Below are positions 22,775 to 41,972 of a stretch of DNA of 54,604 nt, in pieces. The translations under genes were made by a program, and so were the position numbers. The DNA comes from an uncultured Bacteroidales bacterium (GTDB lineage: Bacteria; Bacteroidota; Bacteroidia; Bacteroidales; Bacteroidaceae): assembly GCA_902779845.1 (NCBI GenBank), contig CACZCZ010000025.1:1-54604 (forward strand). Direction: 5' to 3'. The notes under the pieces were generated by a model. That model was not told the DNA's origin, searched no databases, and worked only from the letters and a program-made list of their open reading frames with translations. The first letter of the stretch is position 1, and every line of letters starts with the position of its first letter.

Positions 22775-22794
22775 ACGTAACTGTTTTTCGGCTG

Positions 22795-22802
22795 CAAAGG
22801 TA
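22795..22802 (-). promoter_or_regulatory. -7 promoter box (TACCTTTG) for typA
   Basis: Exact TAnnTTTG box on the minus strand, 20 nt before the typA start. The upstream side is a heptamer array without a TTTG partner. Confidence 0.55.
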
Positions 22803-22811
22803 CATATAATA

Positions 22812-22850
22812 AATGAAAAGGGAAGACTGAAAAGTGAAAAGTGAAAAAAC
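22812..22850 (+). repeat. short heptamer array, GAAAAGT type
   Basis: A few GAAAAGG/GAAAAGT units in one orientation just upstream of the typA promoter box. Confidence 0.75.
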
Positions 22851-22944
22851 TCCTCTTAAGAAAAAACATTTCTTAACACTTTTCATGCGCACACCACATT
22901 ACTTCTGAGCCAATGCTTCACAGACTCTGTGAATTCTAACCCCA

Positions 22945-23135
22945 CATGAAAGACACTACTACTCCCTTGCCAGACCCTCTATAGAGACTACGCGCAGACA
23001 CTATAGAGGGTAAGCTTGCAGACGATAGAGCCCCCTCACCGAACCCCGCAGGGTTTTCGCGAAAAGGGTGCAGGGTTCTGGCCAAAACCCTGCACCCTTC
23101 GGACAGCCCCCCTATAGGGCGGACTTTTGAGTGAT
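22945..23135. repeat. multi-hairpin element with three inverted repeats
   Basis: Three hairpins in a row. ACCCTCTATAG (22974-22984) pairs perfectly with 23001-23011 around a 16-nt loop. AAGGGTGCAGGGTT (23064-23077) pairs perfectly with 23086-23099 around an 8-nt loop and is preceded by the palindrome TTTTCGCGAAAA. CCCTATAGGG is at 23110-23119. A 67-codon open frame spans it on the minus strand, but its codons follow the hairpins and I do not accept it as a gene. The rest of the 22775-23149 gap holds the typA promoter, a heptamer array and nothing else I recognise. Confidence 0.75.
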
Positions 23136-23149
23136 ACAATTTGATGACT

Positions 23150-23500
23150 TTACTTCACCAGCATCTTCTTGCCATTGCGTATGAAGATGCCTTTCGTGGC
23201 GGGCTTGCCACTCAGCATGCGACCGTCAAGCATGCGCCATGGAGCGACATCGTCCTTCACATGGACATCCACATTCCTTACACCATCACCTTTGAGAGGC
23301 ACAATGCTGCCGAAACTTCTCCACGGTGCGGTCGTGCGATAGGCTTCTATGGCGATGGCAGGAACGTGAAGGGTTGAGGAGTACAAAGTTGCAAATGAAT
23401 TAGATTCTGCAGAAGGCACAATTTCAGAGATGCAATATACATCTGCCAGCACCCAACACCCAGCGAAAGCACTACCACCTATTTCTGTCGCATCGCCCAT
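23150..23500 (-). pseudogene. remnant of a BspA-type leucine-rich surface protein
   Basis: A 116-aa frame that begins inside an LRR_5 repeat (ATEIGGSAFAGC) and ends in a typical C-terminal sorting-like tail (GRMLSGKPATKGIFIRNGKKMLVK). It has no signal peptide and lacks the many upstream repeats such proteins normally have. I read it as the 3' end of a surface protein gene whose front part was lost, probably when the adjacent AT-rich island was acquired. The unpaired 260 nt between it and the PIN gene contains no other gene that I can see. Confidence 0.6.
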
Positions 23501-23739
23501 AATAACAATGGATAATAAACTCGTACAACCTGAGTATTTGCAACTCGTTGTATGTCAGTCGATTTTGTCTAAAACGGTAGAAAAGTGATTGCGTAGATTC
23601 TGTAGATGGTGAAAATGGCAAAGATTTAACATTTTTAATTTTTGTAAACCATTCTTGATAGTCTCAATCTTTATTTGTAGCTTGGCGTATAAATAGGTCT
23701 ATTATGGACTATAGTCAATGGCATGGTTCCAAAATAAAA

Positions 23740-23757
23740 CCGCCCCTGTCGAGGCGG
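23740..23757 (-). terminator. terminator of the defence operon
   Basis: On the minus strand, CCGCC-8 nt-GGCGG followed directly by TTTTATTTT, 7 nt after the stop of the PIN gene. It marks the end of the operon. Confidence 0.75.
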
Positions 23758-23763
23758 CTCTTA

Positions 23764-24822
23764 TTAGACGGAATCAGGATGGATGAATACCAAATTCCCT
23801 TCCACATTCACAGCTTTGAAAACCTCCTCATCGTTTTCTTCGCAAACGAATGTCACAATGCTATTCCCTCCCTCTGGCGAAAAAGGCACTTCTATCTGTT
23901 TCCCACAATGATAAAGGTTCGATTTCGGTTTTGGGCTATACAGAAACGATAAGTTCTTTGTAAGTATGAAAGTGTATAACTCCTTATCCTTCAACTCTGT
24001 TTCCGCCTTGAAAGCAATTAGATGTTTGGGGGCACCGGCACATTCTCTGACGGTCACTTTCCCCAACAGTCGGTCTTTATAGGTATCTATCAGACAGCTC
24101 ATCACATATTGGATAGCCAGTTCTTCCACATTTTCGATTTCAGTTTTCAAGCTTTGTGTACCGCCCGTATATCCAGCCACCCCATTTCCAAGACTGTCTA
24201 TATGTTCAATATCTGGTGTCTTACCAGGATTGAAAGCTGTTGAAATCTCAGCTCTTGAATTCGTAGCCCACTTATAGAAATCTTTGTCACCTGTAAGCAG
24301 AATCACGTGTTCAGAGACCTCCTCTATACTGTTCTTATAAACAGACGATACCAGCACAAGACTGTCCTCCCTTGATATCTTGGTCGATAGACAGATTGCC
24401 TTCATGGGACCAAGCAGCCTGTCATTGAAGCTGTTCAGGAAATCAATACTGAACTCATTTGTGATTTTTTCAACATCCTCATTCACCTTCTTCTTCACGG
24501 CCTCTGCCAAATCTCCCTCGTATTCATAATCGGGAATCTCATAGCGCTTGTTGTACTTGATAAAAGAGGAGATGTTTATAAACTTCCCATCCTTCTTCGA
24601 ACGTTCCCAGACCTCATGGAAATAGTCCTCTTTCTTCCGCACTTCAAACAGTTCTGCAAGCACGTATTCAGAGGAATACAATTGCACAACGGGCATCTCC
24701 TTCAGTGCCGTAATGAAGGCCGTTAGCGTCGGGAATGTATTATCAATCAGATAACACAAGATATTGGTGTCTAAAAAGAAGTTGATTTGAAACTTCTCCG
24801 ATCTTGCAGACTCTCTATCCAT
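23764..24822 (-). CDS. PIN-domain nuclease-like protein
   Basis: A 352-aa protein with an N-terminal PIN domain that keeps all acidic metal ligands: Asp18 in FFLDTNIL, Glu57 in YVLAELFE, Asp153 in SREDSLVLVSS, and Asp179/Asp181 in LLTGDKDF. PIN domains cut RNA, or flap DNA in some families. The protein is about twice the size of a VapC toxin; the C-terminal 150 residues are unrelated to anything I recognise. It is the last gene of the operon, two bases behind the ATPase gene, and has its own terminator. The position suggests the effector of a defence system, controlled by the ATPase, instead of a free-standing toxin: no VapB-like antitoxin is adjacent. The domain call is strong; the role is inferred. 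Confidence 0.85.
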   Translation of the reverse strand: MDRESARSEKFQINFFLDTNILCYLIDNTFPTLTAFITALKEMPVVQLYSSEYVLAELFEVRKKEDYFHEVWERSKKDGKFINISSFIKYNKRYEIPDYEYEGDLAEAVKKKVNEDVEKITNEFSIDFLNSFNDRLLGPMKAICLSTKISREDSLVLVSSVYKNSIEEVSEHVILLTGDKDFYKWATNSRAEISTAFNPGKTPDIEHIDSLGNGVAGYTGGTQSLKTEIENVEELAIQYVMSCLIDTYKDRLLGKVTVRECAGAPKHLIAFKAETELKDKELYTFILTKNLSFLYSPKPKSNLYHCGKQIEVPFSPEGGNSIVTFVCEENDEEVFKAVNVEGNLVFIHPDSV

Positions 24823-24824
24823 AC

Positions 24825-26126
24825 TTAAAATGTTGGTATATTCTCTTCTACAAAAGCCTTACCCATTATCTTAACCTTTTGGTCAGCAGCACACTCAAAG
24901 AGCACAAACGTCGCCTTAAGAATACGACGCACATTTCCATCGCATGTTTCGTTGATGAATTCCAAAGCATCTTGAGTAAACGGGAACTCTCCGTTAAACT
25001 CTGCTATTCTCAAATAGTTCTCTATAACTTGCTTCGTCTCTGCAACATTCAGATTGTTTATTATCATCTTCTTGATAGTAATTCTGTCTGCCAAAGGCGG
25101 CGAAAGTTCCACCAACCTTGAAAGAGCTTTAGGATTCATGGCAAATAACAAGCACCATTCGCGATGTTTGTCAAGCAAGGTGCGTAGGTTATGGATATAG
25201 TTATCCAACTGCGCCTTAGATAAACGCCCTGTGGTCAGGTCCTCAAACTCATCTACTAAAATAAACACATGGGTATACCCCTCTCGTTTAAGTAATCTCA
25301 CAATGTATTTGATGACATCTGCTTCCTTACCCGATATTTGTCTCAAGCTGCCGCTGGTCAATGCTTCCCATGTCTTGTTGATACCAAAGTCCGATGATAT
25401 GAACTCGTAGAAGTAATAAGCAACGGTGGAATCCTTGGTATCTTCATTCAATATCTTCTGAACAATGTCACTTAGCAAATCGTCAAACTTCCTTTTCTTT
25501 GGAGCAGGCAACGACCTGACAAAAGAGTCTAGGAACTGCTTATAGCTCACCGTATTAGCATCGCTATAAGGATTGATGGAATCCTTTATGTCTGGGAAAA
25601 GCACCGACAGGTTGGGTTCGTAAGGTTTCAGCTGCCCTTGGATTTCGCTGCTATTCTGAATCACATTGAGAATATGGTTCCAGACATACTTGCGTGTGTT
25701 CTCCTCACCAATTTTACTGATCAAAGTCCCGATAAATTCCAGGATGGAGCCACCCGGATTGTCAATGTAGATGGTATATGGCTTTAAATAGGTCTGGCTG
25801 TCGCGGATTTCATTCAGTTTTGACTTGGCATACATTAAAAGCTGTGTTTTGCCACTACCATAGTCCCCCACTATCGTTGCGCTGATGAACTGGTCATGTT
25901 CCTCAACTTGGTTGGGAACCAAGGCGTTTGCAATAAATTGGTTAATACCGTTAAGGATTTCACTGTCAAGGGGCTTCAACTTACTGTTTACATCATCACC
26001 GCCATTAATGTTCGACGTACCAGACCTCGGGAAAGGATTGAACTTGATGTCCCATAAATCGTACTTGTTCGTCACGGGCCCCATTTGCAGGATGTCCTCT
26101 ATGCCTTTGTACTCCTTCTCATCCAT
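24825..26126 (-). CDS. P-loop ATPase of the defence operon
   Basis: A 433-aa ATPase with Walker A GDYGSGKT (87-94) and Walker B HVFILVDEFEDL (Asp292, Glu293), then a sensor-like Asn in FAMNPKAL near 340. The GxYGSGKT loop and the VDEFEDL box recall the Orc1/Cdc6-like and BrxD/DUF2791-like ATPases of phage-defence operons, a resemblance judged by eye. The central part is helical, and the end resembles a winged helix. The start codon overlaps the upstream gene by 8 nt and the PIN gene follows after 2 nt, so the three are translationally coupled. Likely role: a nucleotide-driven switch or DNA-loading motor acting with the PIN protein. Family confidence moderate. Confidence 0.8.
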   Translation of the reverse strand: MDEKEYKGIEDILQMGPVTNKYDLWDIKFNPFPRSGTSNINGGDDVNSKLKPLDSEILNGINQFIANALVPNQVEEHDQFISATIVGDYGSGKTQLLMYAKSKLNEIRDSQTYLKPYTIYIDNPGGSILEFIGTLISKIGEENTRKYVWNHILNVIQNSSEIQGQLKPYEPNLSVLFPDIKDSINPYSDANTVSYKQFLDSFVRSLPAPKKRKFDDLLSDIVQKILNEDTKDSTVAYYFYEFISSDFGINKTWEALTSGSLRQISGKEADVIKYIVRLLKREGYTHVFILVDEFEDLTTGRLSKAQLDNYIHNLRTLLDKHREWCLLFAMNPKALSRLVELSPPLADRITIKKMIINNLNVAETKQVIENYLRIAEFNGEFPFTQDALEFINETCDGNVRRILKATFVLFECAADQKVKIMGKAFVEENIPTF

Positions 26127-27156
26127 TTTTCCTTAATTTTAAATGTGAAACAAAACTACCTTTATATTTCGGGTAAAGTATTCTATCGTTCTTGTTCAGT
26201 TCGGTTTCTTTGATAAAAATCTCGGAAGTCCTTATCAGTGATACTACGTCAGAGTGTGCCAAATAATAGTCTATAACGGCCTGTTGCGCTATGCTGATGC
26301 CACAACGGTATTGCAGACATAGTTCCATCACCAGATCAGAAATATCTATCAACAATTGGCGAAAGAACTTCACGTCCAACACTCCTTGCACATCCACCTT
26401 GACGCCAGATTCTATAAAGTATGCAGCACTGAACGACTTGTCATTTGGCAACAAATACCCCTGCCGTTTCATGTTCAGTCGCTCTAATAATTCCAGCTGG
26501 GTTGCCCATGAAAGAAACATATCCCAGAACCTTACAAATCCCCCCTTCGCATTTCCTTTGTCATTTAAAGGGAAGTGATACAGCGTTTCTGGGCTGCTTA
26601 ATGTATAGAAGAATGTATCCACACGAGTGCTAACGGAACCGTAATAATACAGCACGCCGCTCTGTCTCATAATATAATGTTCAGTCAACGCCAGTTTTTC
26701 TTTTGTCGTCATTCTGGGATTCACAAACAGTGAGCAATATTCTTGAAAACGGAAGTAGTGAAAGAATATCTCACGGAAAACGCTTAAATCCTCTTCCCTC
26801 AACGGGGCACCTGGCTCAACCTCCTTAAAAACGCCTTTTTTGCAGACCAGTGTTTTCTGGTGCATGACACCGAAGTTAATCAGCGCATTCTTGATTTCCA
26901 ACACACGTCGCCCTTTGTCATCCCATTTGCTCCTTACGGCAGGGATAACACCCTTTACGTGCTTGTTCGAGAACTCTGCCACCGTTCCGTCCTGCCCATA
27001 CTTGCAGAAAGCCAAATACACGTCCCTTAGTTCCTGAAACGAATACACAAACGGAAGCGACCACCCCTTATGGATGATTTCCAAAGCCTCCGTTTCGGTA
27101 ATCAGATTCAGATACTCCGTCTTTGCTTTTGATATGTCTACCTTTTTCGTGGGCAT
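26119..27156 (-). CDS. unknown protein of the defence operon
   Basis: A 345-aa protein I do not recognise. The N-terminus (TETEALEIIHKGWSLPFVYS) and the segment around 60-100 (VPAVRSKWDDKGRRVLEIKNAL in part) look helical and basic, as in DNA-binding winged-helix proteins. The middle and end are helix-rich without membrane segments or repeats. ATG overlaps the last base of the methyltransferase stop codon (TAATG), and its own stop overlaps the ATPase start by 8 nt, so it is an integral member of the operon. Its position between methyltransferase and ATPase would fit a specificity or adaptor subunit. This is inference only. Confidence 0.8.
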   Translation of the reverse strand: MPTKKVDISKAKTEYLNLITETEALEIIHKGWSLPFVYSFQELRDVYLAFCKYGQDGTVAEFSNKHVKGVIPAVRSKWDDKGRRVLEIKNALINFGVMHQKTLVCKKGVFKEVEPGAPLREEDLSVFREIFFHYFRFQEYCSLFVNPRMTTKEKLALTEHYIMRQSGVLYYYGSVSTRVDTFFYTLSSPETLYHFPLNDKGNAKGGFVRFWDMFLSWATQLELLERLNMKRQGYLLPNDKSFSAAYFIESGVKVDVQGVLDVKFFRQLLIDISDLVMELCLQYRCGISIAQQAVIDYYLAHSDVVSLIRTSEIFIKETELNKNDRILYPKYKGSFVSHLKLRKNG

Positions 27157-28415
27157 TATTTCAATATTAGAATATTTTCAGAAAGTGAGATGTTATGTCT
27201 GTTCTTCAGGGCTTTCCATTTGTCACCACGAGAGCGAATCTTATGGATAGAATACTCTGTAAAACCGGCACTCAATGCTATATCTCCCAATATTTGGGTG
27301 GTGGGCACGTAAATGCCATACGGAGCGGAATCTCCCAAAATCAAGTATGCTTCACCGCCATTGTGCAACACCCTACGCATTTCTTTCAGCACATAGAACA
27401 TATCCTCAAAGTAATGCATCATCAGGATGTGGAAGCTTTTCTTTCCTTTACGTTGTTTGGCGTTCTCCTTAATTCTTCCATATAACTCCACCAATTTACC
27501 CATAGTATCAGGGTTATGCTGGGCAAACTCCTTTTGGGCAAACTCTTCCATCACAAACTCAGTGTCTCTATAATGTGTGGTGGCTCCTGTCACTAGTTTA
27601 CGACGCACTTTCTCCGTGATGTCATTCCAATCATTAGTCATCTCAAAAAAATGGCTATGTACTTTGCTAACTTCTCCGTAGTCCAGATTGTTAAGATATG
27701 GAGGTGATGTGATGCACAGTCCACAGGAAGCATCCGCAACGTTTTCATTCTTCAGCCGTGAATCCCAGTTATACACCGTGGCCAGTTGTTCGTGATGGGG
27801 CATTTGCTGTATATCTGAGTACATATGTTCCGATATCCGTTGGAACTTTTCCCAAGCCTTGCCGGAATCAGAAAGAAAAGTGGAGCGTGAAATATACGGC
27901 ACGGCGATAGGGTGTATGGCCGCTTTGTGCAGCGTCTGGCTCAGTGCCAAATTAAAGAATTGCTGTACATCTTTGTTTCGTAGTCGTTTTATTCCGTCAC
28001 GGATGCAATACAGTTCCCTTAGCGATGGCTCATCATAGAGGGTTACCAGCAGAGGGTGGAACTTGGCGGTAATTTCCGCTATCCTTTTGTTCTCCTCAAC
28101 GTATTTCTTTATATTGTTTTTAGCGCGGGTGTACTGTTGTTTTGTAATGGTCCAGTTCAGTTTGGCGTGAATCACGTTGCACATTAGTTCCTGACTCTCG
28201 TTACCAATGGAGCGGAAACCCAATTTCTGGCATTCCACCAACGTCGTTCCGCAGCCAGCAAAGGGTTCGTACACAACGATGTCTTTGTCCTTATAATCTT
28301 CCAATATAATGTCCACAAACTTATACGAGAAACCCGCCGTGAACTTATACCAATTGTGCACGGGACTGCTCATATTATCCTTCGCCGACCCTATGTTTGC
28401 GTCCAAGATATTCAT
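27156..28415 (-). CDS. SPPY-type DNA methyltransferase
   Basis: A 419-aa amino-methyltransferase. The SAM-binding motif I is EPFAGCGTT (50-58), and the catalytic motif IV is TSPPYLNNLDYGE (SPPY at 237-240). SPPY is typical of N4-cytosine and some N6-adenine enzymes. The order motif I, about 180 residues, motif IV leaves room for a recognition region between them. A late strand (AYLILGDSAPYG) fits the fold. It starts 13 nt after the AbiEii stop. No restriction endonuclease is recognisable next to it; instead an unknown protein, an ATPase and a PIN nuclease follow, so methylation may mark self for that system. Methyltransferase call strong; target base and site unknown. Confidence 0.9.
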   Translation of the reverse strand: MNILDANIGSAKDNMSSPVHNWYKFTAGFSYKFVDIILEDYKDKDIVVYEPFAGCGTTLVECQKLGFRSIGNESQELMCNVIHAKLNWTITKQQYTRAKNNIKKYVEENKRIAEITAKFHPLLVTLYDEPSLRELYCIRDGIKRLRNKDVQQFFNLALSQTLHKAAIHPIAVPYISRSTFLSDSGKAWEKFQRISEHMYSDIQQMPHHEQLATVYNWDSRLKNENVADASCGLCITSPPYLNNLDYGEVSKVHSHFFEMTNDWNDITEKVRRKLVTGATTHYRDTEFVMEEFAQKEFAQHNPDTMGKLVELYGRIKENAKQRKGKKSFHILMMHYFEDMFYVLKEMRRVLHNGGEAYLILGDSAPYGIYVPTTQILGDIALSAGFTEYSIHKIRSRGDKWKALKNRHNISLSENILILK

Positions 28416-28428
28416 TTCATCTCATTTT

Positions 28429-29235
28429 TTACTTTCCTTCCTTCATCAACCTCTCCACCAATTCCTCTTTAACCTTCTCCCACGCCATGGTGGGATTATA
28501 CTCCTGGCCTGGGTTCAGAATCATATCCGTATCAGTCAGAAACTCATCGTCCTGCAGTTTGTCTTCCATATTCAACACAAATTCCATATACGTGGGAAGA
28601 TGCGATGCCGTGAATCCCAAATACCGCTCATAGCTCAGCATCACTTTTTCCTTATCCAGCTCAGGCATCATACTCAGAATCTTCCACAGGTCAAATAGGT
28701 CGCGCCCCTTCCGGCGCTGATACACAGCCCTTAACTTAGTTCCTATCAGTTCTGCCAACTCGTATGTCAAAACCTCGCAAGACCCCTTAAACCACGAATT
28801 CTCCACTGCAAACGGAACCTTCATCATCGGGAATACCGAGAAATGCTCCTTGCAGTTAATTTCCACTTTTAGGTGAATCTCTCCTGCATCAACATCCGTT
28901 GGTTGCACCTTGAACACCAGCGTATTGTTATGCTTCTTCTGCTTTACCACTGGCTCGCCCAGCCACGAGAGCGCATCCCGCAGATGGTCTATCGTTTCCT
29001 TGATGGGCTCTGCCATAACCTGCACCAAATCTATGTCCTCTGAATATCGGGGTTGCGGCCTCAGATACAACTTTCCCAACGCCGTTCCACCACGGAAAGC
29101 TAGATGCTCTGCAAGGAACGCATCACTGTATATCGACACCAGTGCACGGCAGATAATCAAATCTTGCTCCACCTGCACGTTCAAGCCCCAAGGTGCCTTC
29201 TCGCTCCACTCTGTTATATACGATACCGGTATCAT
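28429..29235 (-). CDS. AbiEii-type nucleotidyltransferase toxin
   Basis: A 268-aa protein with the AbiEii nucleotidyltransferase motifs: FRGGTALGKLY, RYSEDIDLV (catalytic acids) and the distal RKGRDLFDLWKIL. Relatives are type IV toxins that add nucleotides, in characterised MenT cases pyrimidines to tRNA acceptor ends, and stop growth during phage infection. The start overlaps the stop of the antitoxin gene by 4 nt (ATGA), the usual AbiE layout. The unusual point is downstream: a DNA methyltransferase begins 13 nt after its stop, on the same strand. Confidence 0.92.
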   Translation of the reverse strand: MIPVSYITEWSEKAPWGLNVQVEQDLIICRALVSIYSDAFLAEHLAFRGGTALGKLYLRPQPRYSEDIDLVQVMAEPIKETIDHLRDALSWLGEPVVKQKKHNNTLVFKVQPTDVDAGEIHLKVEINCKEHFSVFPMMKVPFAVENSWFKGSCEVLTYELAELIGTKLRAVYQRRKGRDLFDLWKILSMMPELDKEKVMLSYERYLGFTASHLPTYMEFVLNMEDKLQDDEFLTDTDMILNPGQEYNPTMAWEKVKEELVERLMKEGK

Positions 29236-30047
29236 AGCTCGTCAATTTCTATCTCTTCGTTCACAACAATCTTCCAACGCCCGTTCATCTCGCAGCCCTC
29301 AATGGACTTTCCGGGCTTCAGAGCCGCCTTCTGCAACCGAACACCAGCACGTTTCAACAGGCCATAAACCGCATCAGCAGCCTCAGTCTCTTCTAGAACA
29401 TCATTCAAGATATACCCCAGCCGCTGAAAACAAGCCACAGGCGCCACTTTTACAAACTCCGGTCCCAAGTGTTCGAAATTCGTTTTCTCTACCAGCTCCG
29501 ACAGCACCGTGGCGGCCCTTGTGATACTTCCGGCACTCTCCTGATAAGCCACCAAATCCACCGCCGTCAGTTCCGGACATGACACATTGATATATCCCGT
29601 TCTCGTCTGCCGCCGCTCCACATACTCCATCGGAATGGCCGAGCGATAGAAATATTTCGTAGCATACTTATCCGTTTTCTTGCCCCGCATTGTGGGCGAC
29701 TCCAGCATCACGCAAAACATCATTGGAGCCTGATGCGCCGCACCATGGTAACTGCCAGCGCTCAACAAAGCCACATAATAGTTACGCTCCAAGTGTCGCA
29801 TCATATCATCCAAATAGAACGGTTGCGGAGCAAACCCACGTAGCGCATACTCATCGGGGATGATTACATAAAACCCATTTACGGGAATCATAATCCGTCC
29901 CTTTCTCACCTCCCGCGACAGCGTTGCCGACAGCACTTCCGCTGACATCTCAGGGAAGGCCGCCGCCACCTCCTCACGCGAGAAAGTGTATCTGCCACGT
30001 TTTGGTTTGGCAGCTATCCAGTCCGCTATGCTTTCTGTTCCGCTCAT
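29232..30047 (-). CDS. AbiEi-type antitoxin
   Basis: A 271-aa protein with an N-terminal winged-helix domain (FSREEVAAAFPEMSAEVLSA, then GRIMIPVNGFYVIIP), followed by the AbiEi C-terminal domain (MMRHLERNYYVALLSAGSYHG, VDLVAYQESAGSITRAATVLS). In known AbiE pairs this protein neutralises AbiEii without binding it stably and represses the operon by binding its promoter. A -7 box lies 23 nt upstream. It is the first gene of the six-gene minus-strand run, so it could regulate the methyltransferase-ATPase-PIN genes too. Confidence 0.92.
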   Translation of the reverse strand: MSGTESIADWIAAKPKRGRYTFSREEVAAAFPEMSAEVLSATLSREVRKGRIMIPVNGFYVIIPDEYALRGFAPQPFYLDDMMRHLERNYYVALLSAGSYHGAAHQAPMMFCVMLESPTMRGKKTDKYATKYFYRSAIPMEYVERRQTRTGYINVSCPELTAVDLVAYQESAGSITRAATVLSELVEKTNFEHLGPEFVKVAPVACFQRLGYILNDVLEETEAADAVYGLLKRAGVRLQKAALKPGKSIEGCEMNGRWKIVVNEEIEIDEL

Positions 30048-30069
30048 ATCCTCATTGCTATTTTGTCTG

Positions 30070-30077
30070 CAAAAATA
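30070..30077 (-). promoter_or_regulatory. -7 promoter box (TATTTTTG) for the AbiE operon
   Basis: TAnnTTTG match 23 nt upstream of the AbiEi start, in AT-rich DNA; no TTTG partner at 20 nt. The 236-nt gap to the SIR2 gene shows no clear terminator. Confidence 0.4.
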
Positions 30078-30283
30078 AACAATTTCTGTTAATTATCGCA
30101 TACACACCAGCGTTTTTTTATTTAGTTAACATAAATATTTCATAATCATTGCCCAAAACAATTAGAATAAAGCTTCTTGCTAACTTTACATCTTCATTTC
30201 TTCATACTATCTTTGGTCTAAACACTGCTAATAAATATAGTAGGTTCCCATCCGTTTTTAGTCTATCGCCTACAAACCCATAG

Positions 30284-32611
30284 TTAAAAAGTAATACCCA
30301 ATAGTGTAATCATTTCATTTAGTTTTGCTAATGCCTTTTCACTTTCATCATCCCAAGTGTTTGACTTAACAATTTGTTCTAACCAACTACGTGCGGTTTT
30401 CAAATAACTGAACGCTTTCTCGTCATTAAATCTCCCATAGTACTGAATAGCTTGACTAGCAAATATTCGTGCATGAAATCTTTTACGGGAATCCGCATTC
30501 ATACACTTTTCGAGTATCTGCATGCTTTTGTCCAGTTGTTCTCTCACGCTATTATCGTTTTTCTCAATATTAGCATTAAATAAAATTACTGCATGTGAAT
30601 TGCGAATAGAGAAATATTTATCATCGGTCATACTGATAGCACGATCTATCCACGCGAAAGCATCATCATACTTACGTTTTTGAGATAAGTATAGAGCACC
30701 CTGTTGTAAAACATAAGGATTACGGTTGTCATATATGAATGCTTTTTCATAAAAAGCTTTACCATCTCTCCAATTAGCAAATGCCTTCAAGGTTACATTC
30801 TTATCAAAAGCATATTTGTGAAAAGTCTTGTAATCACATATGTGCGGATATGGTACTTTATCAAGAACGCCATTCAAAACCCTCGACAGAAGATCACTAG
30901 AACAAGCATCTACTATGACATCAGCAATGTATCGAGAGCGAGGATAATAATAATCCATGTTTTCATATGAATCATCCTCAGGTATATAGTCTTTTATTAT
31001 ATCAGAAGCATCGTCTTTCATAGAAAAGACATCCTCTACACTGAAATTATCGAAATAATCATAAGCAACTTCAAAAGGTAATGGTACATGACATGAATGC
31101 ATATAGGCACACAAAACAAGAAATTCAGCCAATTCAGGATCTTCACTCTCCAAATCGCGTAATGCTGTAGTGTATCTTTCCTTTACATTTTTTTTATTTA
31201 CATTCCTAGAAACAAACTCAAACAGGGTATCTTTATCATATTTGGTACCTTCTGCCTCTTTGGCCAAACTATTTCTGCGAATACTTTCTGGAACGGAATT
31301 AAAAATACTCTGTAAATCTTGATCGCTTAATGCTGTAACATTGTATACTATATACTTCTCTTCGTCTATAAGATTTGAGATAATACCATAGTAATGGCTA
31401 CGATCTGAACATACAATTTTAATATTATCTTTTTCTAATTCCTTAATAGCATCAATGCTATCATAAAGATTATCAATAAAAACTACAGCTTTCTCTTTGT
31501 CAATTAACTTTGCAATATATTTCGCTCGACTTTGCGTTAGATTATCAAAATATAATTTCATGCCTAGACCATCACATTCTTTTGCAGCTTGCATAAGAAG
31601 TGTTGATTTCCCGGAAACGGGTGCACCAATAATAACAGTATTTTTCCCTTTTCCATATATACAATTTTTAATATTTGCCAAGTGATGGGTTCGACATATT
31701 TGACCACTTAAAATATCACACCACAAAGGAGAACTTCCTTCATAGAACTCTTTAACAGGGCGCTGAACCTTAACTTCATGGTTATTATGAGGAACAAAAA
31801 ATGATTTTAGTAATTCATATCTATCTTTGTTGAAGTTTTGCTTAACACCAGCACCAGTTATTGTTCCTATATACTCTAAGAAGCCTTTAATATCTGCTTT
31901 TATGATATGAAAACCTAATGACTGGTAATATTCTGCATATTGTTGGTCTTCATTTCGTAAAACCACCCATATATCCTTTCTCGCATTAGTGAATGTTTGT
32001 TGAGATAATAATGTTTGAAGAACAGAATTATCATTAAAGCTATAACCCACAAAAACTGTAGGGTGTTGTTCTAACGATTGTGCTAACAGGCTCCAAATAC
32101 GAGGGGCATCGCTAAAAATTGTGGCCAATGAGCCTACATCAAATATATATTTGTGAGGAAAAGTAACGATAGAACCATGCAATCCTAAGTAATCAATATT
32201 ATTCCTATCAGTGGTCTTTCCATCTGTCCCTAAGTTGTTTATAAAAACACCAGGGACATTTTTATAGATTTCAAATATAAGATTATCTATATTAGTGGTA
32301 TATACACTTTTTATATTAATATTCTGCAGATTATAATACAGAGGATCAACATATTCGACGGTAAAACGATTTGTCAAATAATCATAGAAAGGTCCTTCAA
32401 CAGTACTAGTTAGAATAGAACATAACTGAGGCAACTGATAATATTTGGGTTTTCCAAAATATTCCGCCAATTCATCTGCTAATTTGTTACCCAAAGGTAG
32501 CGCCTTTCCTGTTTTATCTTTTGCCAAGATAGAAAAGCCTGCACCAACAAATAAATTAATTCCTTGATGGAAAGCATGCTCTAAAGAATTCTGATTTTCA
32601 ATTTCAATCAT
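30284..32611 (-). CDS. SIR2-STAND defence protein (Avs5-like)
   Basis: A 775-aa protein with three parts. Residues 1-250 form a SIR2-like NADase domain: GAGFS (23-27), TTNID (105-109), HGS with the catalytic-type His145, and GYSFND (189-194). Residues 290-500 form a STAND NTPase: Walker A GAPVSGKST (329-337), Walker B KAVVFIDN (374-381) and a sensor-like CSDRSHYYG. The C-terminus is helical and TPR-like (NPYVLQQGALYLSQKRKYDD). Proteins of this layout sense a phage component with the C-terminal repeats, oligomerise and deplete NAD to abort infection. It is a stand-alone gene of low GC, upstream of the AbiE operon on the same strand. Confidence 0.88.
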   Translation of the reverse strand: MIEIENQNSLEHAFHQGINLFVGAGFSILAKDKTGKALPLGNKLADELAEYFGKPKYYQLPQLCSILTSTVEGPFYDYLTNRFTVEYVDPLYYNLQNINIKSVYTTNIDNLIFEIYKNVPGVFINNLGTDGKTTDRNNIDYLGLHGSIVTFPHKYIFDVGSLATIFSDAPRIWSLLAQSLEQHPTVFVGYSFNDNSVLQTLLSQQTFTNARKDIWVVLRNEDQQYAEYYQSLGFHIIKADIKGFLEYIGTITGAGVKQNFNKDRYELLKSFFVPHNNHEVKVQRPVKEFYEGSSPLWCDILSGQICRTHHLANIKNCIYGKGKNTVIIGAPVSGKSTLLMQAAKECDGLGMKLYFDNLTQSRAKYIAKLIDKEKAVVFIDNLYDSIDAIKELEKDNIKIVCSDRSHYYGIISNLIDEEKYIVYNVTALSDQDLQSIFNSVPESIRRNSLAKEAEGTKYDKDTLFEFVSRNVNKKNVKERYTTALRDLESEDPELAEFLVLCAYMHSCHVPLPFEVAYDYFDNFSVEDVFSMKDDASDIIKDYIPEDDSYENMDYYYPRSRYIADVIVDACSSDLLSRVLNGVLDKVPYPHICDYKTFHKYAFDKNVTLKAFANWRDGKAFYEKAFIYDNRNPYVLQQGALYLSQKRKYDDAFAWIDRAISMTDDKYFSIRNSHAVILFNANIEKNDNSVREQLDKSMQILEKCMNADSRKRFHARIFASQAIQYYGRFNDEKAFSYLKTARSWLEQIVKSNTWDDESEKALAKLNEMITLLGITF

Positions 32612-33147
32612 ACGATGCTATATTTATTTCAAATATGTATTCCTCAGATAATCTATGAAACACATTTAATCGCCACCCTAATATTTTACGAGAATAAAAT
32701 CATTGTTCGCATGTTTTTAAACATTACTAGAAACTGTTGTCCAAAACAGATGGTTGAGGACTTTAAATTGTATACTTACTATTATCAATAGTTTTTATAT
32801 CCATTTGGGTGCTTTGCAAATAATCTTATTTTACCTTGCAAAGGTACTACTTTTTCTTGAAATGGATGCATAAAATCATCATTTCGCGCGTAATTTAAGC
32901 AATTTTTATCTAAAACAAGGCTGTGTTATAACAAAAAAAATGATTTTGCATAAACTTTCTGTTTTTTGATAAAGGGAGGATAAACAAATTGAATACGAAT
33001 ATATGAATCTACTCAAATAACAAAAATATAAAAGCATCTTCTTCATAAAATAAACAGTTTAACCTAACATTTGGGATATAGAATAATACAAAATCTCTTC
33101 AAAAATCATAATTCAACAATTAGTTCTGTTAAATAAATACTAAATTG
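32612..33147. other. AT-rich intergenic region at island edge
   Basis: Over 500 nt of very AT-rich DNA with stops in all frames. A TACCTTTG box on the minus strand (32839-32846) could drive the SIR2 gene with a 5' leader of about 220 nt. I see no RNA gene or inverted repeat that stands out. It ends at the consensus promoter of the blaI-like gene. Confidence 0.5.
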
Positions 33148-33179
33148 TTTGGTTGAGTCGAAAGAAAAGTCTATCTTTG
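33148..33179 (+). promoter_or_regulatory. consensus promoter for the BlaI/M56 operon
   Basis: TTTG (33148-33151), a 20-nt spacer and TATCTTTG (33172-33179), with the BlaI-like start 51 nt further on. BlaI regulators normally bind their own promoter, so the leader is the likely operator. Confidence 0.8.
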
Positions 33180-33230
33180 CACTGAAATCAATAGATAATA
33201 TTGTTAATACGTATCTAAAATAGTTGAATT

Positions 33231-33593
33231 ATGGAGAAACTTACAAGCAAAGAAGAAGAAGTGATGGAGCTGATTTGGCAACTTGGCCAGTGCGCCCCAA
33301 AGGATGTTTCATCGCTCTATCCCGAACCTCAGCCCAGCGCAAATGCCATTGCCCAGGTGTTTCAGGCACTGGAGAAGAAAGGTTACCTGACGCATGAACC
33401 GAAGGGGCGTGGCTTTGTCTATCGGCCTCTCGTGGACAAACAGGCATACGGAAGAGGAAGGTTGTCGAGTGTTATCAATCGCTTCTTCAGTGACTCGTAT
33501 ATGAGTGTAGTGTCGGCACTGATGCAGGAGGAAAAGGTAACCGAGGCAGATTTGCTTCAATATCTTGCCGACCTAAAGCGTAAGGAGGGCTGA
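33231..33593 (+). CDS. BlaI/MecI-family transcriptional repressor
   Basis: A 120-aa winged-helix protein (LTSKEEEVMELIWQLGQCAPKD, then a recognition helix around PSANAIAQVFQALEKKGYL, wing HEPKGRGFVYRPLV). The dimerisation half ends in RKEG. Members repress operons and are inactivated by cleavage through a BlaR1-like sensor. The stop lies 3 nt before the M56 protease gene, the standard pairing. A consensus promoter is directly upstream. The inducing signal is unknown; no beta-lactamase is present here. Confidence 0.93.
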   Translation: MEKLTSKEEEVMELIWQLGQCAPKDVSSLYPEPQPSANAIAQVFQALEKKGYLTHEPKGRGFVYRPLVDKQAYGRGRLSSVINRFFSDSYMSVVSALMQEEKVTEADLLQYLADLKRKEG

Positions 33594-33596
33594 CGC

Positions 33597-35063
33597 ATGG
33601 CTACATTCATTATCTATGCTATCCGGTGGGCGGTGACACTGACACTGCTCTACTCGCTCTACAGGCTCTTGCTCCAACGCGAAACGTTTCACCGACTGAA
33701 CCGTTCCGTATTGCTGGCAATCCTTGTGGTGAGTCCGCTCCTGCCGCTTGTGCCGCTGCATACAGACGAACCGACGGCTATGGATGCAGTGCTTACAAGA
33801 ATTGAGGAGCCGCTGATGAGCCTGTCGACTGATGCGAATAATGCTGATGCCACGCTCGCTACAAGCGAGAATGTCGTATCGGGTCTTTGGGTGCGCTATC
33901 TGGCATACATATATATAATAGGTATTGCCGCCGCACTCGCAGTTTACATGTTCCGTTTACTGACTCTGATGCGTGTCATACGTCGTAGCCGTCGCATATC
34001 TCATCCGATAGTTCCGAAAGATGTACATCTTATGCTGGACATGAGAATTAAACAGCCCAGCAGCTGGATGCACTGGATTTTTATCGGTCCCATTGATCTG
34101 ATGCAGAACGCTGAGACTGTACTTCGACACGAACTGGCACACGTGAGGATGAAGCATTCGTGGGACGTGATTCTTTGCGACCTCACGTGCCACCTACTAT
34201 GGTGTCTGCCCTTCGCCTGGATGTTGCGGCAAGATTTGGTGGATGTACATGAGTTTCAGGCTGACGAGGCTGTATTGCAAAACGGCGTGACGCTGGAAGA
34301 CTACGAACACCTGCTGGTACGCAAAGCAGTACAGACACAGATTCTGCCCATCATGAATACGCTACGCCGTGGAGCCGTGAAGAAACGCTTTGCCATGATG
34401 CACAGTGGTCAGTCGTCAAAGTGGTCACAACTTAAGTTGCTGTATTTGGTTCCTGCCCTCGCAGCTTGTCTATGGTTATCAGCCCAAGCCGAGGAATACA
34501 CGACTTATCTCAACGGCAAGCTCGCAACACAAGAAGAACTTGAGTCCATTAATCCCGGCACCATTGAACATGTAGATGTGATTCACAGCCAGAAAACGGT
34601 GCTGAAAGAGACTGCTACAGAATCAGTCGAAACGGGCAGGACGAGACCTGGGGTAAGGTCAGATGTAACTTACGACAAGCCAGAACAAAAGCCCCAGTTC
34701 CCCGGTGGTGATGCGGCCATGCAGCAATACATATCACAGCATATACGTTATCCGAATATTGCCATCGAAAATGATGCTGAAGGCACCATTAATGTTGAGT
34801 TCTTCGTTGAAGAAAACGGGAGTATCACGAATGTGAAAGCCTTGGAGTCTTCGCCTGCGTCAGTCAAAAGCGACATTGTGGTGACAGCATATCGGCAGGT
34901 AAACAGCAACATATCTGCTTTAGACAAAGATGAAGGTAATCGTGCCTTGCAGGAATCTTCTGAGGAACTCATCCGAGGTATGCCACTGTTTGAGCCAGGA
35001 CGAAAACAGGGCAAAGCCGTCCGAACTAAAGTGACTTTGCCCATTACGTACCAGCTCAACTGA
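33597..35063 (+). CDS. M56 BlaR1-type sensor protease fused to a TonB C-terminal domain
   Basis: A 488-aa membrane protein. The N-terminal half carries four hydrophobic segments (FIIYAIRWAVTLTLLYSLYRL, then about 35-50, 95-120 and 280-300) and the M56 zinc motif LRHELAHVRMKHSW, with the distal Glu in VHEFQADEAVL. The C-terminal part (from about 360: PQFPGGDAAMQQYISQHIRYP, ending VRTKVTLPITYQLN) is a TonB C-terminal domain, replacing the penicillin-binding sensor of classical BlaR1. It should sit in the inner membrane, cleaving the adjacent repressor on signal; the TonB domain may contact the outer-membrane protein encoded downstream. Confidence 0.9.
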   Translation: MATFIIYAIRWAVTLTLLYSLYRLLLQRETFHRLNRSVLLAILVVSPLLPLVPLHTDEPTAMDAVLTRIEEPLMSLSTDANNADATLATSENVVSGLWVRYLAYIYIIGIAAALAVYMFRLLTLMRVIRRSRRISHPIVPKDVHLMLDMRIKQPSSWMHWIFIGPIDLMQNAETVLRHELAHVRMKHSWDVILCDLTCHLLWCLPFAWMLRQDLVDVHEFQADEAVLQNGVTLEDYEHLLVRKAVQTQILPIMNTLRRGAVKKRFAMMHSGQSSKWSQLKLLYLVPALAACLWLSAQAEEYTTYLNGKLATQEELESINPGTIEHVDVIHSQKTVLKETATESVETGRTRPGVRSDVTYDKPEQKPQFPGGDAAMQQYISQHIRYPNIAIENDAEGTINVEFFVEENGSITNVKALESSPASVKSDIVVTAYRQVNSNISALDKDEGNRALQESSEELIRGMPLFEPGRKQGKAVRTKVTLPITYQLN

Positions 35064-35176
35064 CCAAAGGTCAACTGACTTAGTCCTAACCTTATTACCA
35101 ACATTTGATAATCCGTCCAAACGACGGACAGCCCTTGTTGTACCCTTACAACAATCCCAATAAAACATTAACAACA

Positions 35177-36061
35177 ATGAAAAAGATTTTAGCAACCATG
35201 ATGGCCTTTGTGCTGACGATAGCAGCGCAGGCCCAGAGAGACACGATTGGCGTGTCGAAGTTTACGGCGATTTATCGCTATGAGTGTAAAACTACTGATG
35301 CTGACGGTCAGCCAGTAACAGACTCGATGTACATTGCAGTACAGACATCGGGCGGCATCACAAAGAGTTTCCCTTACGAAGAGTACAACAGACAGAAGAA
35401 GGGTGGCTCTCGTATAGCAGACGGTTATCTGGCTGCCCAGATGCACATGGGTACCATCTTTACGAACTACCCCGAAGGCAGAATCACAACGCAAGAGATG
35501 CTCTATCCGTATCGCTACATGACGGACGAGCCATTGGAAAAGCAGAACTGGAAACTGACTGATGCACAGGACACCATATGCGACTATGCCAGCCTGTCGG
35601 CCACGGCTAAGTATCACGGCCTGACTTGGAACGTGTACTACACGGAGGATGTGCCAGCCAGCATAGGGCCTTGGAAGTTAGGAGGATTGCCAGGTCTCAT
35701 TACGAAGGCTACCGATGCCAAAGGCATACATACCTTTACGCTTTACGGTTTCCATCAGGAGGAAACACCGATAATATTCACCCAATACGTCAATTGGATT
35801 GTCCCTGACGGACGGGGCAAGTTTGCAGCCCAGCGAGTAGATTATCAGAAGATGAAAGCCTCAAAATTCCTTGCGTACAAGAAGAAGATACTGGGCAATA
35901 GTCGCTACGTGAAGAATCCCACTTACTATGCCGCCAGCCCCATGGAGACCTTTGGGTATGTGGAGAATAGTTTCAACTCTGCTGGCGAAAATATAAGCAG
36001 TGTCGCAGGGGTAGTCTTAGTATCAAATCCGAGACAGTACCAACCGCTGGAACTGAAGTGA
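35177..36061 (+). CDS. GLPGLI family exported protein
   Basis: A 294-aa protein with a signal peptide (MKKILATMMAFVLTIAAQAQ) and the family-defining segment GPWKLGGLPGLITKATD. GLPGLI proteins are Bacteroidetes-specific, exported, and of unknown function, often next to TonB-type sensors and outer-membrane proteins, as here. The frame is open from 35105, but the ATG at 35177 gives the signal peptide at the N-terminus, so I chose it. It lies 113 nt after the M56 gene and 7 nt before the 51-aa gene, probably one operon. Confidence 0.9.
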   Translation: MKKILATMMAFVLTIAAQAQRDTIGVSKFTAIYRYECKTTDADGQPVTDSMYIAVQTSGGITKSFPYEEYNRQKKGGSRIADGYLAAQMHMGTIFTNYPEGRITTQEMLYPYRYMTDEPLEKQNWKLTDAQDTICDYASLSATAKYHGLTWNVYYTEDVPASIGPWKLGGLPGLITKATDAKGIHTFTLYGFHQEETPIIFTQYVNWIVPDGRGKFAAQRVDYQKMKASKFLAYKKKILGNSRYVKNPTYYAASPMETFGYVENSFNSAGENISSVAGVVLVSNPRQYQPLELK

Positions 36062-36068
36062 GACTGAT

Positions 36069-36224
36069 ATGAAACCACTCCAATTCATCCGCAAAGCATT
36101 CAACTGGCTGACTAGTCCCGAACACTTCTCACTCGTCAATGGCACATGTTTCAAAAAAGAAAATCTAAGCAACAAGGAAATCAAAGAAATCCTCCAAATC
36201 ATCGAGCATGAGGAAGTAAGTTAG
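36069..36224 (+). CDS. 51-aa protein between GLPGLI and outer-membrane genes
   Basis: A short frame starting ATGAAACCACTCC and ending TTAG two bases before the next ATG. The product is basic at the front (KPLQFIRKAFNWLTSPEHF) and acidic and helical at the end (NLSNKEIKEILQIIEHEE). No signal peptide or known domain. The tight fit between two operon genes (7 nt before, 2 nt after) supports translation. Function unknown; it may be a small partner of the M56/BlaI system. Confidence 0.6.
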   Translation: MKPLQFIRKAFNWLTSPEHFSLVNGTCFKKENLSNKEIKEILQIIEHEEVS

Positions 36225-36226
36225 AT

Positions 36227-38182
36227 ATGAAACGACTCCTATACATTATATTATATGTGGTGCTGGCAGCGTCAGCTTCGGCACAGGTGAAAGTGACGGG
36301 GCGGGTGATTGACCTGCAGAACAAGCCCGTGAGTGATGTGATAGTGAAACTGGTGAGCGGCAGCAAAACGCTGGCGTTCACCAGCAGCAACGCGCTGGGT
36401 GTGTATAACCTTGAAGTCAAGAATGCACCGACGGGGGAGGTGACGCTACAGTTTAACCACATCAGCTATGAGAAGGAGTCGGAACGTGTGACGCTAAGGG
36501 ATAAGGTTTCTAAGTTGGACATGATTCTCACTCCGAAGAGCATCAGCCTGAAGGAGGTGACGGTGAAGCCTGACCCGCTGCGGCAACGGGGCGACACGCT
36601 GATGCATAACCTAGCGTCGTTCCTCGGCAAGGGCGACGTGACGCTGGAGGACGGTCTGAAGCGGCTGCCGGGAGTGGACGTGGCGCAGAGCGGTGCCATC
36701 AGCTATATGGGCAAGCCCATCTCGCAGTTCAACATCGAGGGGTTGGACATGCTGGGCGGCAAGTACAACCTGGCGACGAGGAACATCCCGGCGGACTACG
36801 TGACGCAGGTGGAGATAGTGCGCAACCACCACAGCCGACGGGTGGAGAAGGACGTGCCGAGCAACGAGGTGTCGATGAACATCAAACTGTCGAACAAGGC
36901 GAAGTTCAAGCCGTTCGGGCAGGAGGCCATCTGCTCGGTGAAGGGCGGCAACTACAAAGGCTTTGCACGGGCCGACATGTACGACCACTTCGGCGGCTCG
37001 GATGTGAGCACCCGCGCCACGAGCCTGTTTGGTGGATTCGACGGCGGTGCGCCTCCGCAGGGCGAATACCTCTACCAGCGCAACGGCATGGCGACGCTGA
37101 ACGGCATCCTGCGCACGGACTCGTTCACGACCATGAAGGTGAATGCCGACTACAGTTACCACCGCGCCACGCACGACATCAGCCAGAGGTTTGTCCTCAA
37201 AGGGAAGTTTGAGGAGAATGAGGGGGATGTGGTTGCTAACGGCTCTTTAGTGGAGCAGCGACGGAAGACTTCATCGTTTGAGGTGGGCAACGAACTTTTC
37301 TGGATGGGCAGGACGGAGAAGGGCGCACGGCGACACGTCCATGCGTCGGTGTCGTTCAGGCGGACACCGACGCTAAGGCTCTCGTTCAGCCAAGACGGTA
37401 CGGACTACGGGCAGACAGCGCAGTCCTCAACGCTCAGCATAAGCGTCGGCTCGTCGTTCCAAATCCCCATCGGCAAGTCGTTCCGGCTGAACCTGCCCGT
37501 CAGCGTGTCAGCTATGTATGACGACTTGGAAACCTATCGCACGGCGACTGGCGAGATGAATGACATTCGCGGCTGGGCCTTCACGCCGACCCTCAACCCC
37601 GGCTTCGAGATTCATTCCAAGAACCGCCGCTTCTACCTGAGTGCAGGCATCGGGGCCGCGCTGAAGGGGCTGTACTATAATAAGCTGAACTACACTAAGC
37701 CCGTGCTCAATCCCTCGATGGGCATCAACTACACCTTCTCAGCCAACAGCAAACTGTCGTTTTCGACGGGCTACACGACCTCGATTGGCGACATGATGAC
37801 GCTGCTGACGGAGCCGATGCAGGTGGACTACCGCTCGGTGCGCACCTCGTCTGGCATCATCGGTGAGTCGAACACGTGGCACACGTCGGGCGAATGGAAA
37901 TGGCAGCTGCCCATGCAGTACTTCACGCTGAGCCTCGCGGCCAGCCACAGCGAAGGCAAGCAGAACACGCTCACGTCGCAGTCGGTCAGCGGCATCGACG
38001 TGAGCAGCACGGCCCTGCTCCGCGACTCCCGCAGCCGCTCCACGCTCGAACAACTACAACCTCCACGGCAATGCCTCCGTCACCCCCATCCAATGGCTCG
38101 AACTGCGCTACGACATCCGCTACGGCTGGTCGCACTCCCGCTACTCCGAGGAAAGCAACACCGTGACCTCCCTCACCCATAG
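36227..38182 (+). CDS. outer-membrane beta-barrel protein with CarboxypepD_reg domain, frameshifted
   Basis: The visible frame codes 651 residues: signal peptide (LLYIILYVVLAASASAQ), a carboxypeptidase-regulatory-like beta domain (VTGRVIDLQNKPVSDVIVKL, about 20-100), a plug-like region (LKRLPGVDVAQSGAISYMGK) and beta-barrel strands. From about base 38045 the frame goes into Arg/Pro/His-rich nonsense (LQPPRQCLRHPHP), while the +1 frame carries the proper barrel end (NNYNLHGNASVTPIQWLELR and on to 38459). Removing one base near 38046-38050 would restore a protein of about 744 aa. It looks like a TonB-dependent-type receptor served by the sensor operon upstream. Either a real inactivating mutation or a sequence error. 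Confidence 0.85.
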   Translation: MKRLLYIILYVVLAASASAQVKVTGRVIDLQNKPVSDVIVKLVSGSKTLAFTSSNALGVYNLEVKNAPTGEVTLQFNHISYEKESERVTLRDKVSKLDMILTPKSISLKEVTVKPDPLRQRGDTLMHNLASFLGKGDVTLEDGLKRLPGVDVAQSGAISYMGKPISQFNIEGLDMLGGKYNLATRNIPADYVTQVEIVRNHHSRRVEKDVPSNEVSMNIKLSNKAKFKPFGQEAICSVKGGNYKGFARADMYDHFGGSDVSTRATSLFGGFDGGAPPQGEYLYQRNGMATLNGILRTDSFTTMKVNADYSYHRATHDISQRFVLKGKFEENEGDVVANGSLVEQRRKTSSFEVGNELFWMGRTEKGARRHVHASVSFRRTPTLRLSFSQDGTDYGQTAQSSTLSISVGSSFQIPIGKSFRLNLPVSVSAMYDDLETYRTATGEMNDIRGWAFTPTLNPGFEIHSKNRRFYLSAGIGAALKGLYYNKLNYTKPVLNPSMGINYTFSANSKLSFSTGYTTSIGDMMTLLTEPMQVDYRSVRTSSGIIGESNTWHTSGEWKWQLPMQYFTLSLAASHSEGKQNTLTSQSVSGIDVSSTALLRDSRSRSTLEQLQPPRQCLRHPHPMARTALRHPLRLVALPLLRGKQHRDLPHP

Positions 38183-38459
38183 CGGATCCATCCACGTATT
38201 CCCCATCGCCACCCTCGACCTCTCTCTGGACTACGACCACGTGCGCCGTCAGCTCACTACCGACCAATACAAGCGCATGTCCCTCTTCAATGCCTCCGCA
38301 CAGTACAAGTGGAAGCAGTGCGTCCTCCGTCTGGAACTCACCAATCTCCTGAACCAGCGCAGCTACTCCTACACCGTCTTCGACGGCATCAACACCTATA
38401 CCTATGACTACGGCCTCTGCGGTCGCACTATGATGCTCCGCGCCACGTTCAAACTATGA
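38040..38459 (+). pseudogene. out-of-frame 3' part of the outer-membrane protein gene
   Basis: A continuous frame shifted by one relative to the upstream part. It encodes amphipathic strands (NNYNLHGNASVTP, LDLSLDYDHVRRQLTTDQYK, LRLELTNLLNQRSYSYTVFD) and ends in MMLRATFKL, a typical barrel end with a final hydrophobic residue. It has no start or ribosome binding site of its own. Confidence 0.8.
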
Positions 38460-38488
38460 ACATTACTTGATTTCAATAAAGTAGTAAA

Positions 38489-38567
38489 GTTCTTGGACGA
38501 GCCAAGCGGCAGAGCCGAGCGAGTAAAGAAGATTAGTTCTTGGCTGAGCCAAGGCAGAGCCGAGCGA
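38489..38567 (+). repeat. two imperfect direct repeats of about 33 bp
   Basis: Copies at 38489-38522 and 38536-38567 share GTTCTTGG, GAGCCAAG and GCAGAGCCGAGCGA. Each contains a small TTGG...CCAA dyad. They follow the outer-membrane protein gene. Confidence 0.75.
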
Positions 38568-38608
38568 AACAAAGTAATTTTTGTTGGCATCGCCTTCGTT
38601 TTCTCGCC

Positions 38609-38642
38609 ATGCCCAAGTACAAACGAGTTTGTACTTGGGCAT
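38609..38642. repeat. 34-bp near-perfect palindrome
   Basis: Arms ATGCCCAAGTACAAAC and GTTTGTACTTGGGCAT are exact complements with only GA between. The flanks (CGTTTTC and GAAAACG) extend the pairing imperfectly. It may be a terminator, recombination site or stem of an RNA. Confidence 0.85.
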
Positions 38643-38678
38643 TTGGCTTAACGAAAACGTTCAAAGACCTAAGGCACT

Positions 38679-38715
38679 AAAGCCCCGTCACGTCATCACG
38701 ACGAGGCGGGGCTTT
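38679..38715. terminator. GC-rich hairpin
   Basis: AAAGCCCCG (38679-38687) pairs with CGGGGCTTT (38707-38715) around a 19-nt loop, with T or A tracts on each side. A bidirectional terminator is likely. Confidence 0.6.
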
Positions 38716-39277
38716 GTCGCGAAGAATGCCAAGATGTCTTGGAACAAAAGATAACTGGAAAGGTTTATACCAAGAGCATGTCGCAACAGACTTCTTATAC
38801 ATATTATGCTTGCTGCGCAAAAATGCGAACAGTAACCATTGATATTTGCTGCGTAATGTTGAGCTATCCATACTCCGCAGAAGTTCGTCAGTTGGCGATT
38901 GTGGTGGGTGGATTAGGATGCACCTCATTTCGTTTGGGGTAATAAAACGGAGCGAACTCCGGCGCATCTGAATGGCACTCTCAGACGGCTTGCGGCGAAG
39001 GAACTTTTTCAAATGTTCTAAGCCTAATTAGCGTTAACTGTTATTAACACGATTTGGAAGGACACCTTCTGCTGCGCGGAGCAAGCTCGTTTGAAGTATG
39101 GAAAAGAAGTTGCCCTGGTATCATCTTGCTACCAGATTTCATTCGTGCAGATGACAGTCGCTTGAAGAGTTTTCATAGTCACTACAAACCCCATTGCTTG
39201 CTACCCCTGACTCTGAAAAAGTGGCATCGGCAAGCCGATTATAATGAGTGGATATAATTTCCATAGATTCATCGCTG
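38716..39277. other. intergenic region without a convincing gene
   Basis: Open frames of 67-111 codons exist on both strands (for example 38677-39012 minus), but they have no ribosome binding site, domain or usual composition, and the longest runs through the hairpin. I treat them as chance. No RNA gene is recognised. Confidence 0.4.
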
Positions 39278-40347: not shown

Positions 40348-40394
40348 CACCTGGGTATTGTTGTCTAAAGAAATGGATAGGTGTTTTATGATTA

Positions 40395-41949: not shown

Positions 41950-41972
41950 GCTGAACAGTTTTTATTGCTCTG

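Follow-up and report, generated by a model that had tools for sequence, protein, structure and literature searches.

The 54,604-nucleotide contig CACZCZ010000025.1 of an uncultured Bacteroidales bacterium (assembly GCA_902779845.1), called the window below, carries four consecutive minus-strand genes encoding a DNA methyltransferase, a 345-residue protein, an AAA+ ATPase, and a PIN-domain nuclease. The locus raises two questions: whether the four genes belong together, and whether they form a defence system not yet described, as the original prediction had proposed. The four genes are a genuine conserved, mobile unit, and, judged from sequence, they probably constitute a modification-gated anti-invader system.

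Organization of the operon

The four open reading frames are located at positions 23764..28415 of the window, and the overlaps of 1 and 8 nucleotides and the gap of 2 nucleotides that had been reported between them agree exactly with the coordinates. Along the minus strand, they encode the methyltransferase (27156..28415), the 345-residue protein (26119..27156), the ATPase (24825..26126), and the PIN nuclease (23764..24822). As had been claimed, the operon ends at an intrinsic terminator on the same strand (23728..23770), a strong hairpin with a T-rich tail directly after the last stop codon (−20.1 kcal/mol, z −4.07). A terminator consensus scan returned only the plus-strand mirror of this hairpin.

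Conservation of the four-gene set

All 15 complete loci, that of the window among them, share the order of methyltransferase, 345-residue protein (the proposed reader), ATPase, and PIN nuclease, so the expected conservation in other genomes is borne out. Fourteen of these loci belong to Bacteroidota (four of them placed by kinship) and one to a metagenome-assembled genome of Acidobacteria (L017); together they represent 12 distinct lineages, with intergenic distances ranging from −14 to +19 nucleotides. One relative, G123, which was retrieved under several locus labels (L019 and L002/L004/L022) and counted once, has the four genes in the same order as the window. An alignment of the methyltransferases of the window and G123 was used to scan 84,980 species genomes, which yielded 14 loci, 11 of them complete and in order, including that from Acidobacteria. 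Two of the remaining loci (L018 and L020) end at a contig edge inside the methyltransferase gene, and L021 contains only a methyltransferase fragment; no reader, ATPase, or PIN gene was found in the fetched stretches of these three loci, which were left out of the comparison of catalytic residues, gaps, and identities among the 15 complete loci. The fragment (L021:2854-3099) is a 66-residue match that is 95% identical, and its fetched locus lacks the three partners; judged from the sequence, it is best described as a remnant or a replaced copy of the system.

A separate search of 395 Bacteroidota genomes with an ATPase alignment (E up to 1e-8) gave four matches, that of the window's genome included, all accompanied by the full set, and the ATPase-anchored search contributed three further complete loci. 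Because searches anchored on the methyltransferase and on the ATPase both reach the full set, they support a four-gene unit. Full-length PIN matches occur in the same four of the 395 genomes, as do methyltransferase matches above 600 bits (E limit 1e-25); the next two methyltransferase matches score about 130 bits, and their fetched loci are without partner genes. Five partial PIN matches, covering 25–104 profile positions and only part of the PIN domain, were rejected as noise. When 200 relatives were searched with the reader, a single clear relative emerged apart from the genome of the window itself, that of G123 with 29% identity, and an order-level search with a reader profile found only these two genomes among 295. 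A match to the reader in G097 (7.3e-4 over 88 residues) contains a stop and was dismissed as noise.

By tblastn, the reader has no match in plasmids or phages, the PIN protein none in plasmids, and the methyltransferase none in phages; the plasmid search with the methyltransferase gave five Erwinia records with 28% identity, and the one examined is without partner genes. Two scans of viral contigs provided no confirmed relative.

Components of the operon

The methyltransferase is of the amino-methyltransferase type and is the proposed self-marking enzyme. It was expected to be a DNA methyltransferase with an SPPY motif; it contains FAGCGTT and TSPPY, matches Pfam N6_N4_Mtase (9e-11), and is covered nearly along its full length (residues 7-409) by the PADLOC model MTase_II PDLC03306 (7.4e-48). 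Its PADLOC matches, among the 25 of 39 that are listed, are models of type II methyltransferases. Every one of the 15 complete loci retains the motifs F[AS]GCGTT and TSPPY. Median pairwise identities are 56% (methyltransferase), 38% (ATPase), 30% (reader), and 27% (PIN protein).

The 345-residue protein had been called unrecognized, which holds for Pfam, PADLOC, NCBIfam, and PHROGs, where it has no match at E up to 1; no PADLOC profile is matched by any of the nine reader proteins scanned. Its predicted structure consists of tandem winged helices, with a weak structural match to the N-terminal half of FokI, and this model suggests a role as a DNA reader. Foldseek returned nothing below 0.001. 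No match to BrxA or DUF4007 was found in Pfam or PADLOC, and BrxA is not among the structure matches, an absence that is no evidence against a likeness to BrxA. Against the sequences of solved structures, the reader, ATPase, and PIN protein gave only chance-level matches.

The ATPase is of the AAA_22/BrxD/STAND kind, with the Walker A motif GDYGSGKTQ and the Walker B motif DEFE. The window protein matches Pfam AAA_22 (2.2e-8), and its match to BrxC_BrxD is weaker (1.1e-5); across nine ATPases, AAA_22 is matched by all and BrxC_BrxD by four. The PADLOC BrxD profile matches seven of the nine in part (best 6.7e-7), and the NCBIfam BrxD model, whose cut-off is 350 bits, scores the window protein at 11.8. 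None of the nine matches AAA_5, which we take to be the Pfam family of McrB-type GTPases, at the 0.01 limit (window protein 0.081), and DpdH is matched by one of nine (E 0.054). None of the 15 loci has lost the lysine K93 or the motifs GxGKTQ and DEFE, in agreement with the P-loop ATPase and Walker B box that had been recognized.

The PIN protein is composed, by fold, of an N-terminal VapC-like PIN domain and a C-terminal beta domain, and the solved structures nearest to it belong to VapC toxins and other PIN-domain proteins, of which many are RNases. The family match by sequence is weak (E 0.019 in the window; Pfam PIN in two and PIN_8 in one of nine relatives), and the only PADLOC match is an unnamed candidate profile in one of nine. 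The assignment to the PIN nuclease superfamily is based on the fold together with the acidic residues D18, E57, D153, and D179, which are kept in all 15 complete loci, as the claim of a nuclease with all its acidic residues implied.

Co-variation of the four proteins

The distance matrices of the reader, ATPase, and PIN protein are strongly correlated with each other in a Mantel test on 12 loci, from which L008, L009, and L010 were dropped as near-copies of the window (reader–ATPase r 0.89, reader–PIN 0.87, ATPase–PIN 0.91, each reached by none of 2000 permutations). The correlations of the methyltransferase with each of the three are lower, with r of 0.53–0.62 reached by 0 to 6 of 2000 permutations; all r values include a contribution from shared ancestry. 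The tighter co-variation suggests that the reader, ATPase, and PIN nuclease constitute a three-protein unit, with the marking enzyme under separate constraint. The somewhat separate position of the methyltransferase agrees with, and is no proof of, the proposal that methylation marks self.

Mobility and genomic neighbourhood

The operon lies in a cassette (23523..32946) that shares 98.2% DNA identity (blastn) with another Bacteroidaceae genome, L008, whose sequence diverges from the window beyond either end of the match. Over positions 23557-30200 the identity with L010 is 98.0%, and that locus carries other genes upstream of AbiEi. The GC content is 42.9% in the operon and 40.7% in the cassette, as opposed to 57.6% to the left and 51.3% to the right. 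The cassette is part of an island of about 19.4 kb (22790..42251) between typA and a YfhO-like gene. These two flanking genes are adjacent in two congeners that lack the island (L049 and L050), so that in the genome of the window the island comes between them. Of the congeneric typA regions listed, five were compared: typA adjoins a homologue of window positions 42250-45503 in two of them, G003 and G019; no such neighbour is present within the fetched stretches of G016 and G010, and only 1.8 kb is comparable in G018. The low GC content, the different flanks, and the island together argue that the cassette is mobile.

An AbiEii and AbiEi toxin–antitoxin pair (28429..30047, minus strand; AbiEii 6.3e-33, AbiEi_1 5.4e-23) lies 13 nucleotides upstream of the operon. 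Close homologues are positioned directly upstream in L008, L009, and L010, which with the window makes 4 of the 15 complete loci with AbiE at this position, and also in the cut locus L020. The pair was rejected as a core component, since BLASTP detected no homologue in what was fetched of the remaining 11 complete loci. The pair travels with the four genes in the window's lineage and lies outside the conserved core.

Thirteen selected neighbouring proteins were annotated in nine loci, eight of them complete, and seven of the eight other complete loci sampled have a gene nearby that we class, partly by assumption, as defence-type: AAA_15 and DUF3226 in L011, a PLD-helicase in L012, NACHT in L013, a Schlafen-type gene in L014, a C5 DNA methylase in L016, HNH and AAA_5 in L019, and in L027, some 2 kb downstream, an AbiE-type pair that is more distant. 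In the eighth, L029, a DUF5712 gene precedes a full copy of the operon (L029:4074-5102) by about 1.8 kb, and the open reading frames around this copy are presumably conjugative transfer genes.

Further genes surround the operon in the window. A 775-residue protein with SIR2_2 and nSTAND_NTPase5 domains (30284-32611, minus strand, 33.2% GC), which has a 99.6% identical counterpart in L008, is likely another defence gene. The island also holds a Penicillinase_R/Peptidase_M56 pair and a 492-residue ATPase_2 protein (40471-41949, minus strand).

Proposed mechanism and alternatives

The mobility of the cassette and the defence-type neighbours fit a defence system. Neither of the two outcomes named beforehand as refuting the proposal, a library match to the whole set and a lack of conserved co-occurrence, was observed. 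The original proposal is thus supported in part; the anti-phage activity, the methylation, and the licensing of the PIN nuclease by the ATPase are predictions. In the proposed mechanism, the methyltransferase would mark a short site in the host DNA, and the winged-helix protein, judged by its predicted fold, would read DNA and recognize the site when it is unmarked. The ATPase, in keeping with its family and with the co-variation, would assemble with the reader on unmarked DNA, and its ATP cycle would switch on the PIN nuclease. The nuclease would then cut either DNA of the invader or RNA, halting the phage or the cell that it infects. If this is true, a compact four-gene design joins methylation-gated defence, in which the usual restriction enzyme gives way to a PIN nuclease plus a separate reader protein. 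It would also offer a small system in which to ask how an AAA+ ATPase turns a missing mark into nuclease activation, and whether the methylation status of DNA controls an RNA-targeting effector.

The nature of the substrate divides this reading into two sub-cases. It is conceivable that the reader and ATPase sense unmarked DNA and release the PIN protein as a VapC-like RNase, so that translation stops and the cell is killed or stalled while the phage genome remains uncut. The modelled beta domain of the PIN protein may resemble those of translation factors. However, the match of this domain is of borderline significance, the TM-scores to EF-Tu are near 0.2 with root-mean-square deviations of 12.6-19 Å, EF-Tu is absent among the 50 VIA-align matches listed, and an RNA target is only putative. 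Somewhat more doubtful is the second sub-case, in which the reader and ATPase would guide the PIN protein to cut DNA as an endonuclease, and the operon would in function be a new LlaJI-like subtype of nucleoside triphosphate-dependent restriction. The combination of one methyltransferase with a three-protein restriction part speaks for DNA cleavage, since the labour is divided in a comparable way in LlaJI (PMC1459862), as do the type II enzymes closest to the methyltransferase among the PADLOC matches listed; by contrast, the structures closest to the PIN protein include many RNases.

Outside defence, a selfish addiction module, in which the reader, the ATPase, and the methyl mark would restrain a PIN toxin and defence would be a secondary effect, is unlikely. 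The VapC-like fold, the mobile cassette, and the AbiE pair directly upstream in one lineage would suit such a module; however, four co-occurring genes with an ATPase exceed what a toxin–antitoxin system needs, and the AbiE pair has that position in a minority of the complete loci. A role in epigenetic gene regulation or mobile-element maintenance is very improbable. The copy in L029 near DUF5712 and presumed transfer genes would fit it, but the scattered occurrence (in 4 of 395 genomes of Bacteroidota, its own included), the defence-type neighbours, and the retained PIN active-site residues do not.

Comparison with known systems

The modification-gated defence system proposed here has no named counterpart with exactly the same set, in line with the original expectation: no searched library, including Pfam, PADLOC, NCBIfam, and PHROGs, matches all four genes. 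Nor was a description of the set found in the searches of the open PubMed Central literature, a scope that leaves aside subscription papers, most preprints, and other defence catalogues and that includes PMC10853773, PMC7641849, PMC10924106, PMC3874153, and PMC12458937. By its parts the set is analogous to LlaJI or BREX, but it lacks a component expected of each.

Haloarchaeal plasmids (L005:5066-7119, L006:4913-6960, and L007:4910-6960) carry two TGT-like (DpdA-like) genes, a hypothetical protein of about 300 residues, and then a related ATPase (E about 1e-33). They are possibly another DNA-mark system built, by analogy, on the same ATPase. The mark there would be the TGT product, the PIN, reader, and methyltransferase profiles match nothing in the three plasmid regions, and no PIN gene is annotated in their incomplete gene table. 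The idea that the hypothetical protein belongs to the reader family was rejected (hhalign probability 11 and 5%). For DISARM, Dpd, and MADS, several component profiles of PADLOC 2.0 were not found together in one locus. The MADS profile mad8 matches seven of nine ATPases weakly and in part (best 2.8e-4), but it matches the neighbouring SIR2-STAND protein as well (2.2e-4), and no other MADS profile occurs among the matches listed (25 of 39 for the methyltransferase). The DefensePredictor systems DS-3 and DS-5 require a PIN ribonuclease for phage defence; however, they are one- or two-protein systems, for which passages of PMC13092281 describe no methyltransferase or ATPase.

BREX, as portrayed in passages of PMC12839542, has a layout of sensing, modifying, and restricting, a tandem helix-turn-helix/winged-helix BrxA (DUF4007), and a BrxD ATPase of the ORC-Cdc6 type, and PIN RNases figure there only as rarer auxiliary or backup effectors. 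The ATPase may resemble BrxD, since it matches the PADLOC profile in seven of nine loci while scoring far below the NCBIfam cut-off, and the reader may resemble BrxA in its modelled tandem winged helices, although it matches no BrxA or DUF4007 profile. PglZ, which defines BREX, did not turn up among the proteins scanned from 23150 to 45542 of the window, and in five of the 15 carrier genomes, those that were scanned, all PglZ matches are on other contigs or, in the case of G605, at a distance of about 640 kb. The locus is not a complete BREX, nor, lacking a multi-profile match, a complete DISARM, as had been stated.

LlaJI, a McrBC-like system that modification blocks, joins methylation to a specificity function, a nuclease, and an AAA+ NTPase, and restricts unmethylated DNA, according to PMC1459862 and passages of PMC12707154. 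The operon differs in that its likely reader is a separate protein and in having one methyltransferase instead of two. Its ATPases are AAA_22/BrxD-like and not McrB-type GTPases, and its nuclease has a PIN fold instead of PD-(D/E)XK. It shares with LlaJI-like restriction-modification systems the DNA methyltransferase and a comparable division of labour (PMC1459862). LlaJI is the closest functional analogue of the four-gene operon.
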